From: a virus
Strand: one strand, 5' to 3'
IMG/VR virus record: IMGVR_UViG_3300049846_002872
Location: 1 to 20,870 of that record
Length of the DNA stretch: 20,870 nt
A program made the position numbers and the translations under genes. The notes beneath the pieces were generated by a model. It was not told where the DNA came from and ran no database searches. It saw only the letters and a list, made by a program, of their open reading frames with translations. Positions 8,526 to 11,196 of this stretch are shown here, in pieces; positions within the stretch are counted from its first letter, which is position 1; each line of letters opens with the position of its first letter.

Positions 8526-8648
8526 TTATTTAAAAAAGTGATATGCTACTAGTGCCGCCACAATTACCGCTATTGGTAAAGCAACGCGCCCAAGCTCGTA
8601 GCCAATAGCGCCGTAAAACCCAAGCTTGAATGCTTCTCGACGTTTCAT
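8526..8648 (-). CDS. Tiny membrane protein (40 aa)
   Basis: A 40-residue protein starting MKRREAFKLG and ending in HFFK. It has a basic N-terminus and one hydrophobic helix (about residues 22-37, RVALPIAVIVAALVAYHFF), so it should sit in the inner membrane with the N-terminus inside by the positive-inside rule. ATG 8648 has an aaggga SD 7 nt upstream, and both flanking genes are on the same strand with gaps of 11 and 29 bp. It is real by SD, frame and composition rather than by homology. Function unknown. Small phage membrane proteins often act in lysis, superinfection exclusion or host interference. Confidence 0.65.
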   Translation of the reverse strand: MKRREAFKLGFYGAIGYELGRVALPIAVIVAALVAYHFFK

Positions 8649-8677
8649 CTATATATCCCTTCATGTAAGATACACAA

Positions 8678-8821
8678 CTAGTCCCTACGGCTACACCACA
8701 AAACTAGCCATACAGGCCACATCAAGATAACTGTGGCAGCCCACGTAGCCAAGACAGCTCCTACAGCACCTATTGGTGCCACAACTAAAGTACTAATGAT
8801 TTTTAAAGCAATGTCTGTCAT
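8678..8821 (-). CDS. Tiny membrane protein (47 aa)
   Basis: A 47-residue hydrophobic protein (MTDIALKIISTLVVAPIGAV...). Hydrophobicity runs from about residue 5 to 41, enough for one long or two short membrane helices with a Gly/Pro-containing middle (APIGAVGAVLATWAA). The end is basic (WCSRRD), predicting a cytoplasmic C-terminus. A strong aggggaag SD lies 5 nt before ATG 8821. It has no recognised family. Together with the neighbouring 40-residue protein it forms a pair of very short membrane proteins in a gap that longer genes leave open. Confidence 0.65.
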   Translation of the reverse strand: MTDIALKIISTLVVAPIGAVGAVLATWAATVILMWPVWLVLWCSRRD

Positions 8822-9430: not shown

Positions 9431-9793
9431 TTATTGCTCCTTCTTCAACGAGCTAACTAAATGCGACAAATCACTAGCTTCAGTAGCTACGAAAATGCTC
9501 GGACTTACTGCCGCTTGAAGGAGCGGAGCCAAACCATTAACGCCGGTAAATAGTGAAGCCCCAACCATAACCCACGCGGCTAAAATGAATCCACCCGCAC
9601 GCTGAATGTTACCTAACGACTTTTCGGTACTGGCTAGCCGGAAAAAGACGGAGCCGATAAGTATCAGCGGAAGGCTGACGGACAGCCAGTGGGCCGCAGC
9701 TCGGATAGCAAAGAACCAAGCTATTTGGCTGATAAGTGAATCGACTGTGTGTGAAGTTGCCTTGATGATTTCGATGATTGTTTCGGTGTTCAT
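9431..9793 (-). CDS. Small multi-pass membrane protein
   Basis: A 120-residue integral membrane protein, probably with three helices: about 22-34 (weak), 37-52 (LSVSLPLILIGSVFFRL) and 66-90 (AGGFILAAWVMVGASLFTGV), with a polar C-terminus ending LKKEQ. Length and topology would suit a holin-like or pore-forming protein, but no endolysin gene is adjacent, so this is only a possibility. ATG 9793 overlaps the stop of the preceding gene (ATGA). Its SD (agggag) lies in the last codons of that gene, so translation is probably coupled. Confidence 0.75.
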   Translation of the reverse strand: MNTETIIEIIKATSHTVDSLISQIAWFFAIRAAAHWLSVSLPLILIGSVFFRLASTEKSLGNIQRAGGFILAAWVMVGASLFTGVNGLAPLLQAAVSPSIFVATEASDLSHLVSSLKKEQ

Positions 9794-9966
9794 ACTCGAC
9801 TCCCTAAGTAGTTAAATAATTGTCTTATATTTGATATAGGTTTTTTGAAAGGATGTAGAAGCGTTTGTTGCGTTTCCTTGTCCCCAAAAGCCGCCTCAAT
9901 TAATGCAAATGGGAGAAATATATAAGTGGCTATTATGTCTTCCGCTGTTGGTCTGTAGTCGCTCAC
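9790..9966 (-). CDS. Tiny protein with YLG tail (58 aa)
   Basis: A 58-residue protein starting at GTG 9966 (MSDYRPTAEDIIATYIFLPF) with an agggagg SD 5 nt upstream. Residues 11-27 are moderately hydrophobic and could be a membrane anchor. The C-terminus IRQLFNYLGSRV carries the motif shared with three upstream neighbours. The GTG start overlaps the upstream stop (GTGA) and its own stop overlaps the downstream ATG (ATGA). Codons for the tail YLGS contain the next gene's SD. Being below 60 residues with a GTG start, it is easily missed. No known family recognised. Confidence 0.65.
   Translation of the reverse strand: MSDYRPTAEDIIATYIFLPFALIEAAFGDKETQQTLLHPFKKPISNIRQLFNYLGSRV
9800..9815 (-). repeat. 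Degenerate copy of initiation/tail repeat
   Basis: The plus strand reads ctccctaagtagttaa, related to the exact 16-mer at 10125 and 10291. Read on the minus strand it encodes part of the NYLGS tail of one gene and supplies the SD of the next (start 9793). Confidence 0.5.
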
Positions 9967-10118
9967 AATGCCCTCCCTATATAATTAATGAATTGTTTGG
10001 CTTTCTCGACGCAGAAGGACGACAGATGCCCGTGGCCGCCAACCTCACGTTCAAGTATGCATATAAAAAATATAGCGAGAATTGTCAGACACGGTAAAAG
10101 ACAAATAGCTTCTATCAC
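9963..10118 (-). CDS. Tiny membrane protein with YIG tail (51 aa)
   Basis: A 51-residue protein from GTG 10118, with an agggag SD 6 nt upstream. The N-terminal segment (ICLLPCLTILAIFFICIL, residues 5-22) is strongly hydrophobic, either a membrane anchor or an uncleaved signal. It contains three cysteines, with another (FCVE) near residue 36. The tail KAKQFINYIGRAL has the motif shared by the neighbouring short proteins. The GTG overlaps the upstream TGA and its own TGA overlaps the next GTG (both GTGA). The gene is supported by SD, two coupling overlaps and the shared motif, but function is unknown. Confidence 0.65.
   Translation of the reverse strand: MIEAICLLPCLTILAIFFICILEREVGGHGHLSSFCVEKAKQFINYIGRAL
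9973..9988 (-). repeat. Degenerate copy of initiation/tail repeat
   Basis: The plus strand reads ctccctatataattaa. Read on the minus strand this encodes the INYIGR tail of the 51-residue protein and contains the gggag SD of the gene starting at 9966. Confidence 0.5.
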
Positions 10119-10285
10119 AACACACTCCCTAGATAGCTTAAGAGTTGTTTACTCTTACTGATTCCAATTCGAGTGAGGTAGACAGCAAGAAACTCGTACT
10201 TTCCATTGGTAGGACTGGGAAACGTCATTAAGGCAACTAATACCCACAGAACTCCCATGGCGGTTAATGCATTATCGGCCGTCAT
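10115..10285 (-). CDS. Tiny membrane protein with YLG tail (56 aa)
   Basis: A 56-residue protein from ATG 10285, with an agggagg SD 4-5 nt upstream inside the previous gene. Residues 6-22 (ALTAMGVLWVLVALMTF) form a probable membrane helix, followed by a basic C-terminal half that would be cytoplasmic or lumenal. It ends KSKQLLSYLGSVL, the shared motif. It overlaps the previous gene by 14 bp and the next by 4 bp (GTGA). Family not recognised. It is shorter than common gene-calling limits. Confidence 0.65.
   Translation of the reverse strand: MTADNALTAMGVLWVLVALMTFPSPTNGKYEFLAVYLTRIGISKSKQLLSYLGSVL
10125..10140 (-). repeat. Exact 16-bp repeat, copy A
   Basis: The plus strand reads ctccctagatagctta, identical to 10291-10306. 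On the minus strand it encodes LSYLGS at the end of the 56-residue protein and holds the SD for the GTG at 10118. Confidence 0.75.
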
Positions 10286-10529
10286 AGGTCCTCCCTAGAT
10301 AGCTTATGAAAGCGAACGCTAACTGACGCAACTGCTGGATGCGGGGAGGGACATACTCAATTAAATCAAAGTTGCTATCGGCATTAAGATAATAACGCCC
10401 GTCGGCTGAAACACACGTGGGCTCGCCAGTGAGGTCTAGGTAGTAAAAAAGAGAATTATTAGGGTCTTTCTTTACCTCAACTACATCGCCGCTTCGGGTC
10501 TTGTAGTAATGTCCGTGTTTGAGAACCAT
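10272..10529 (-). CDS. Small protein with YLG tail (85 aa)
   Basis: An 85-residue protein. The first 55 residues are beta-rich with a VLKHGHYYKTRSGDVVEV start that resembles short phage SH3-like modules. The C-terminal helix (PPRIQQLRQLAFAFISYLGR) carries the shared Q-L-(several residues)-Y-L-G-R motif and a short extra tail (TYDGR). ATG 10529 has an aggagg SD. It overlaps the next gene by 14 bp, and the SD of that gene is in the codons for YLGR. It is the first member of the four-gene chain that shares this ending. Function unknown. Confidence 0.72.
   Translation of the reverse strand: MVLKHGHYYKTRSGDVVEVKKDPNNSLFYYLDLTGEPTCVSADGRYYLNADSNFDLIEYVPPRIQQLRQLAFAFISYLGRTYDGR
10291..10306 (-). 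repeat. Exact 16-bp repeat, copy B
   Basis: The plus strand reads ctccctagatagctta, identical to 10125-10140 (166 bp apart). On the minus strand it encodes ISYLGR in the 85-residue protein and holds the SD for the ATG at 10285. Confidence 0.75.
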
Positions 10530-10544
10530 TTCCCTGACCTCCTA

Positions 10545-10931
10545 CTACTCGTCAAAGTCACGTTCTGTTTCTGGAAGGCGTATGAACTTAAACATGGTGA
10601 GGGATACCTTAAGGCGTTCCTGCACCTCATCTTCATCCTTACAGTAGTTACTATACAACCAAGGTTGATTCTTGCCATCCAACGGCACTATTACATGAAG
10701 TGCCCGCTTAACCTTTGGTTTTGGCGCGGTATAGAGGTGCCAGCCGGCGGCAGTACTCGACATATTTAGCCCGAGATGAGCCTCGGGCGTACCTTCGCTA
10801 TCCATGCCGTACCACAAACCATCACGGGTCAGGAAGTAAGGGACAAAATACCTACTAGCATAGAATAAATCCTTGCATACCTTAATCTCGCCCGGCTTCC
10901 TACCTTCCATTAACTTATTCAATGTTGCCAT
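10545..10931 (-). CDS. Hypothetical protein
   Basis: A 128-residue soluble protein with no recognised family. The N-terminus is basic (MATLNKLMEGRKPGE), followed by aromatic-rich beta segments (YFVPYFLTRDGLWYGMDSEG, WHLYTAPKPKVKRALHVIVP) and an acidic helix (CKDEDEVQERLKVSL). I chose ATG 10931 because ggag lies 9 nt upstream. Upstream ATGs at 10946 and 10994 lack an SD and would overlap the previous gene. The region around this start is 18 of 22 identical to the start region of the gene at 11531, suggesting a shared or duplicated initiation segment. Confidence 0.72.
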   Translation of the reverse strand: MATLNKLMEGRKPGEIKVCKDLFYASRYFVPYFLTRDGLWYGMDSEGTPEAHLGLNMSSTAAGWHLYTAPKPKVKRALHVIVPLDGKNQPWLYSNYCKDEDEVQERLKVSLTMFKFIRLPETERDFDE

Positions 10932-10950
10932 GTTATCAGTCTCCATTTTC
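10929..10950 (-). repeat. Initiation-region repeat, copy A
   Basis: This 22-bp segment, covering the SD and ATG of the gene starting at 10931, is identical at 18 of 22 positions to 11529-11550. Both contain tggag, then an ataacatg start. Confidence 0.5.
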
Positions 10951-11196
10951 ACAAGTTGTTTTGATCCTTTTGAGAAAGCGCTCGGGTAGATCAAAGGTTA
11001 TTTCTCCATTATTCCCACAGCCAACGGAAACTGAATATCTAGTAATACTTGGAAAGACCATGACCAGATCCGTTACATTGCCATACTTGCCGCATTGGAA
11101 AAATTCCATCCTCTTTTTTATCATTTGTTCTTTTGCAGACAAGTGCGACCCTCCCCATATTATGCAAACAGCGGTTCCGTAAGTTAGCAAGCTCAT
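10936..11196 (-). CDS. Probable exported small protein
   Basis: An 86-residue protein with a short hydrophobic N-terminus (MSLLTYGTAVCIIWGGSHLSA) that could be a signal peptide or membrane anchor, though it lacks the usual N-terminal Lys/Arg. The mature part has three cysteines (FQCGKYG, VGCGNNG, TTCENG) that could form disulfides outside the cytoplasm. ATG 11196 overlaps the upstream stop (ATGA), and the SD is weak (tgaggg), so initiation may depend on coupling. Its partner upstream also has a signal peptide. Family unknown. Interference with the host envelope is one guess. Confidence 0.65.
   Translation of the reverse strand: MSLLTYGTAVCIIWGGSHLSAKEQMIKKRMEFFQCGKYGNVTDLVMVFPSITRYSVSVGCGNNGEITFDLPERFLKRIKTTCENGD

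Follow-up and report, generated by a model that had tools for sequence, protein, structure and literature searches.

A candidate gene-junction cassette encoding shared C-terminal tails in a chain of small viral genes

At four successive junctions in a chain of small viral genes, the last codons of one gene contain the Shine-Dalgarno (SD) sequence of the next, and the DNA around these junctions is repeated beyond chance expectation. Based on the sequence, the favored explanation, with a probability of about 0.6, is that successive small genes each received, at the 3' end, a DNA-level copy of a gene-junction cassette of ~27-36 nt, which would couple their translation. The origin of the tightly packed orphan genes that are abundant in phage genomes is obscure. 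If the proposal is true, a reusable end/start cassette would wire a new small frame into an operon in one step, would explain the shared tails on unrelated small proteins, and would mark the places where recombination can shuffle genes without breaking translation. Caution is also called for when a C-terminal motif is common to consecutive phage genes, as such a motif may belong to the nucleotide sequence and need not indicate a protein family. With the arrays found in other phages, the idea can be tested on a large scale.

The repeated junction and its genes

The window, meaning the whole stretch of DNA that was analyzed, is a 20,870-base piece of the IMG/VR virus record IMGVR_UViG_3300049846_002872. 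It encodes a portal protein of the SPO1/Mx1 type, which is matched by 465 phage records, all at less than 60% identity, and for which the best match is Myxococcus phage Mx1 (27% identity). Other products encoded in the window are an RNA ligase, a ResIII/DEAD helicase, a nucleoside deoxyribosyltransferase-like protein, and, with a score short of the Pfam cut-off, a Mu-F-like protein. The genes of interest, A to D, belong to a minus-strand chain of small, packed genes. An earlier note on this DNA had described four consecutive minus-strand open reading frames of 85, 56, 51 and 58 amino acids, and both their positions and their lengths were confirmed (A, 10272..10529; B, 10115..10285; C, 9963..10118; D, 9790..9966). 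Because codon usage, trained on the long genes of the window, favors the gene's own frame as the best of six in each case, and because all four have plausible initiation signals, they are treated here as genes.

The product of gene A has a soluble-looking body and no hydrophobic N-terminal segment. Its C-terminus, ...AFISYLGRTYDGR, holds the SD of gene B, with which it overlaps by 14 nt. The products of B, C, and D each begin with a hydrophobic N-terminal segment and end with the tails KQLLSYLGSVL, KQFINYIGRAL, and RQLFNYLGSRV, respectively. The chain is bounded on both sides. Upstream of A, a minus-strand gene at 10545..10991 is without a tail copy, and the start of A that follows it has an ordinary SD (AGGAG region). 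At the other end, the minus-strand gene that starts at the fourth junction (9431..9793) encodes 120 amino acids with a C-terminus that is free of the tail, so the chain ends there. Searches of Pfam and PHROGs with the cassette genes returned no convincing family. Next to the chain, at 8526-8821 and 9431-9793 of the window, additional tiny hydrophobic proteins of membrane type are encoded that do not carry the tail, and their presence suggests a membrane-protein-rich accessory region.

On its minus strand, the window has four occurrences of the motif ARYTAYNTNGGNAG, each at a junction (9800, 9973, 10125, and 10291), with 0.15 occurrences expected and a maximum of one in 100 shuffles of the window. 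The junction copies, all on the minus strand, are TCATAAGCTATCTAGGGAG at A/B (10291..10309), AAACAACTCTTAAGCTATCTAGGGAGTGTGTTGTGA at B/C (10115..10150), AAACAATTCATTAATTATATAGGGAGGGCATTGTGA at C/D (9963..9998), and AGACAATTATTTAACTACTTAGGGAGTCGAGTATGA between D and the 120-amino-acid gene (9790..9825). The 16-bp identity between 10125 and 10291 reported previously is present, as are the degenerate copies at 9800 and 9973, which have 3 mismatches each. The proposal that the gggag within the tail codons is the SD of the following gene also held, since GGGAG lies 5 nt ahead of the start of B and 6 nt ahead of the start in the other three junctions. Stop and start codons overlap by exactly 4 nt at B/C (GTGA), C/D (GTGA), and D/next (ATGA), and gene A instead reads 14 nt into B. 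An exact 16-mer repeat is expected about 0.2 times by chance in 20.9 kb, by estimate, and is therefore not rare alone; it is the location at two successive gene starts, not the mere occurrence, that makes this one worth attention.

No gaps are needed to align the tails of B, C, and D. Gene A carries TTCATAAGCTATCTAGGGAGGACCTATG, and 18 of the 20 nt up to GGGAG are identical to those of B, although only the last ~20 nt of A are common with the other copies. Of all the pairs formed by nearby SD-start sites in the window, those at the junctions rank highest, with 14-16 matches in the 22 nt upstream of the SD for the best four vs. a mean of 6.8. Over 26 nt, the mean identity of the four junctions is 0.65, and random foursomes of other genes in the window reach at most 0.51. 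The observation is confirmed as real and beyond chance. No further copy of the junction element was found anywhere else in the 20.9-kb window. No notable RNA structure was detected at the junctions (z from -0.5 to 1), an Rfam search gave no match, and promoter-like or terminator-like signals of the region are not above chance.

Tails, bodies, and the proposed function

Counted back from the stop codon, the DNA identity among B, C, and D is 0.71, 0.62, and 0.51 in the first three 15-nt bins, and 0.24, 0.23, 0.22, and 0.32 in the bins farther upstream, which is background. The similarity of the tails thus ends ~40 nt ahead of the stop codon. Without their tails, the bodies of A to D gave local and global alignments no better than those of shuffles, a result that, at 50-60 residues, comes from sequences too short to count against remote homology. 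Read directly from the sequence, the third codon positions of the B, C, and D tails are identical at 5-6 of 8 sites per pair, and those of A and B are identical in all shared codons, though the bodies of these two are unrelated. Tandem duplicates that agree at the synonymous sites of their tails should also agree in their bodies. Because the synonymous sites agree in the tails and the bodies do not, the tail DNA appears to have been copied or kept apart from the bodies. Whole-length protein homology, as in a paralogous family, is missing from the chain, and a copied DNA junction looks like a better fit than plain tandem paralogy.

These results bear on the idea of a tail-plus-initiation cassette raised in the earlier note, which gains support from the restriction of identity to the final ~40 nt, from the lack of body homology, and from the occurrence of the same arrangement in unrelated phage contigs. 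The claim that all four proteins end in one C-terminal motif stands for B, C, and D, which are in register, and fails for the 'RQL' of gene A. It is displaced, with four residues (AFAF) between 'RQL' and ISYLGR.

The same note had taken synonymous changes as a sign that the protein motif is also kept, and the evidence here is suggestive of the same. When the base changes in tail codons 1-7 were relocated at random, BLOSUM scores were lower than observed, with a joint P of 0.001, 0.006, or 0.012 depending on the assumed ancestor, in a conservative-substitution test that was post hoc and covered seven codons only. An A/T-rich leader alone favors codons for Leu, Ile, Phe, Asn, and Tyr. Selection on the tail at the protein level is therefore suggested at most by the pattern of substitutions. 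An AlphaFold model of the gene D product, built from a three-sequence alignment, contains two helices (residues 8-27 and 30-57) at low-to-moderate confidence (mean pLDDT 71), and the helical moment, a measure of amphipathicity, is significant for the tail of C only. The shared tail is probably helical. The suggestion that a common tail binds one partner is speculation.

In mechanistic terms, the upstream gene would owe its final ~9-11 codons to the cassette, which would also provide an A/T-rich leader, the GGGAG SD, and, in three of the four copies, a stop codon that overlaps the next start (GTGA or ATGA). A ribosome ending at the overlapping UGA would adjoin both GGGAG and a new AUG or GUG, and the SD would hold the ribosome so that it could re-initiate. 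Coupling of this kind would allow all of the small proteins to be made in step off one mRNA. Based on the anatomy of the junctions, translational coupling is the most likely function of the cassette, and we infer both the copying event and coupling by re-initiation from this arrangement. Because the distance from tail to stop is fixed, every copy would fall in the same frame and the common tail would be inherited along with it. The in-frame similarity of the tails would then largely follow from DNA copying together with the fixed stop/start overlap. An origin of the copies by repeated duplication, as had been proposed, is plausible, and unequal recombination at junctions, template switching, or conversion could each have spread them.

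Arrays in other phages and known systems

The 50,697 phage records searched by blastn and tblastn contained no relatives of A to D; a weak tblastn match for A (H21) lay on the strand opposite to an annotated gene and was dropped. IMG/VR protein scans with gene A and with the 120-amino-acid neighbor yielded no relatives, the scan with the portal protein found no relative of the chain, and the helicase scan found one distant phage (27% identity) without YLG tails. Degenerate tail patterns searched in IMG/VR and GTDB genomes gave nothing beyond chance look-alikes; the collections searched may lack records very close to the window. In the open-access literature, no paper was found that describes a C-terminal tail common to several genes and doubling as the SD of the next.

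Neighboring SD-start sites were also compared over their upstream 22 nt in about 1.0-1.35 Mb from T4, SPO1, Mx1, TM4, and IMG/VR records. Outside the window, 14 of 1,804 pairs reach 14/22 nt, and the scan recovered as controls the start-associated sequences of TM4 and the extended ribosome-binding sites (RBS) of SPO1 host-takeover genes. In SPO1 (L032), a conserved leader around AAGATTGTAAAAGGAGAG, longer than an SD, lies before several host-takeover genes (4487, 5078, 5450, and 5889, and 12193 and 12697).

An arrangement similar to that of the window is present in a 153-kb phage record, IMGVR_UViG_3300023179_000016 (G001). Here, on the complement strand at about 57.5-61.5 kb, consecutive small genes with differing N-termini end in ARAALEGK, encoded by the nearly constant DNA GCCCGCGCCGCGCTGGAGGGGAARTGA, which contains an SD and either overlaps the start of the next gene or lies directly against it. 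A search of IMG/VR for ARAALEGK returned 35 loci, each by one or more matches; since these loci were chosen by the tail, their number is no gauge of prevalence, and multiplicity within a locus alone is informative. Under a strict DNA match, 7 of the 35 loci contain at least two same-strand copies. Runs of two to five genes occur, with five in L091, four in L079, and three in L092, and other arrays in L093, L095, L096, and L098. Within the arrays the N-terminal bodies differ, and the junction DNA is nearly identical both within and between contigs. Identity is 0.6-0.9 in the last 15 nt (the last 30 nt for G001 and L091), and is 0.22-0.32 past 45 nt. DNA identity restricted to the junction, with bodies at background, was found in a side-by-side comparison of the window, G001, L091, L079, and L092. 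Many of the array bodies have in common a coiled-coil stretch, ENARLREAL or variants of it, and so are not completely unrelated among themselves.

Like the chain in the window, the ARAALEGK arrays consist of coupled small genes with differing bodies and a near-identical last ~27 nt that comprises tail, SD, and RTGA overlap. In contrast to the window, they are G+C-rich and have a different tail, and with no relation in sequence the two share architecture alone. The arrays appear, from their sequences, to be independent counterparts of the window cassette. One array gene of G001 and the L091 array had no match among isolate phages, and no description of the ARAALEGK arrays was found in the open-access literature. 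A wider proposal, to be held tentatively and at somewhat less than even odds, is that unrelated phage lineages build new strings of small genes with portable 3' modules, each furnishing any open frame with a C-terminal tail and a stop, together with an SD and a coupled start for the gene that follows, and each spread by recombination between copies. The tails would at first be a by-product and might later be selected as docking or stabilizing peptides.

Two further candidate tails were observed in these contigs. In L093 (6055-7276, reverse complement) and L075, a tail ILPLP..E..DE recurs on small genes with GAG or GGAG in the last codons close to the next start, possibly representing a third tail type. 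On the reverse complement of L098 (58-1179), three small genes end in ...ENT, encoded by gagaacacatga, with an ATGA overlap.

Two previously described systems resemble the window, and its junction is best regarded as a variant of the interlinked genes of the lambdoid nin region and of start-associated repeats. The nin region is called a 'chain of interlinked genes' with overlapping stops and starts (Kroger and Hobom, 1982, as cited in PMC8022706). As in the window, it has a row of small genes, ATGA stop/start overlaps, and SDs placed inside the gene before. Short, similar Ala-rich tails even precede ATGA in lambda ninB, ninC, and ninG, and several P22 nin junctions are also alike there. The window shares the overlap of stop and start with an SD in the upstream gene (GTGA, GTGA, and ATGA, with GGGAG at 6 nt, and a 14-nt overlap at A/B). 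However, common sequence at the nin junctions is limited to the SD plus a few bases, with identities over 26 nt of 0.42 in lambda and 0.38 in P22, compared with 0.40 for unrelated genes and 0.65 in the window. Moreover, a family check of the four genes and their near neighbors found no nin homologs in a lambdoid setting: there was no Pfam match and no named nin PHROG, and the portal protein is SPO1/Mx1-like.

The second system is the 13-bp start-associated sequence (SAS) of cluster K mycobacteriophages, which contains AGGAG, is present in 11-19 copies at gene starts, and has a proposed role in translation initiation. It is found mainly at genes more than 50 bp from their neighbor and is scattered across half of the genome (PMC3203893). 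The SAS and the window element are both short direct repeats that contain an SD and lie ahead of small genes from different families. In contrast, descriptions of the SAS make no mention of a protein tail in common, and the window copies form a contiguous chain inside coding sequence and in one frame. The window element, TANNTAGGGAG, is not close to GGGATAGGAGCCC, and in place of dispersed copies with long upstream gaps there are four contiguous copies in 20.9 kb.

Alternative explanations

A different origin for the shared tails would be that B, C, and D are tandem paralogs of one small membrane-protein gene, in which the C-terminal helix was selected while the membrane segments diverged, the tail of A was gained by deletion or fusion, and the SD is an ordinary overlap of packed genes. 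Mx1 displays precisely such a picture. In this phage (L033, 7432-8496), three consecutive genes of 106-129 amino acids are true tandem paralogs, with proteins 39-44% identical along their length and tails like QKAID(S)LE; in two cases the tail is QKAIDSLE, written in differing synonymous codons, and the GGAG of the tail is the next SD. Mx1 and the window alike have short genes in a row that end in one tail, with tail codons that form the next SD, and in Mx1 this is the ordinary route to shared tails, duplication. The paralog explanation would also account for the hydrophobic N-terminal stretch in each of B, C, and D, for the conservative tail substitutions, which a pure DNA element does not need, and for the two-helix model of D (pLDDT 71). 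However, the homology in Mx1 spans the whole protein and its identity runs past 60 nt from the stop, and that of the window does not. In the window, the bodies show no homology in local or global alignments relative to shuffles, body DNA is at background while third positions in the tails are mostly identical, the body of A is not a family member, and the tail is significantly amphipathic only in C. Overall, descent of B, C, and D from one duplicated gene seems unlikely, though it deserves real weight.

The DNA identity of the junctions could also reflect a pure nucleotide element at gene starts, read by a phage or host factor such as an RNA-binding repressor or a GGAG-cutting nuclease (e.g., RegB of T4), in which case the protein tail would be irrelevant. 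The SAS of cluster K (PMC3203893), also seen in TM4 by the scan, provides a precedent, as does the extended RBS common to SPO1 early genes. Such an element is nonetheless improbable here, because the copies make up one contiguous chain in upstream coding sequence, in a single frame and with conservative substitutions, and because no copy occurs elsewhere in the 20.9 kb and no fold signal was detected. Still further from the evidence is chance convergence of A/T-rich sequence ahead of ordinary SDs. A/T-rich leaders are common before SDs, and single look-alikes of the tail motif do occur at 22 loci of other phages, which fall into about five groups and include no array, but the presence of the motif at 4/4 successive junctions, against 0.15 expected, and a mean identity of 0.65, against at most 0.51 for foursomes from the same genome, make convergence highly improbable.

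A resemblance of a different sort was seen in many phage contigs (L006, L007, L011-L015, L017, L019-L021, L024, and L026), which have a conserved start region, TAAGTTATCTAGGGAGACAGG(T/C)ATGA, at one site per contig. The gene that follows it encodes at least 139 amino acids (MTVPEAKKLLDAYW... and variants), and the likeness of this region to the window motif is probably due to chance.
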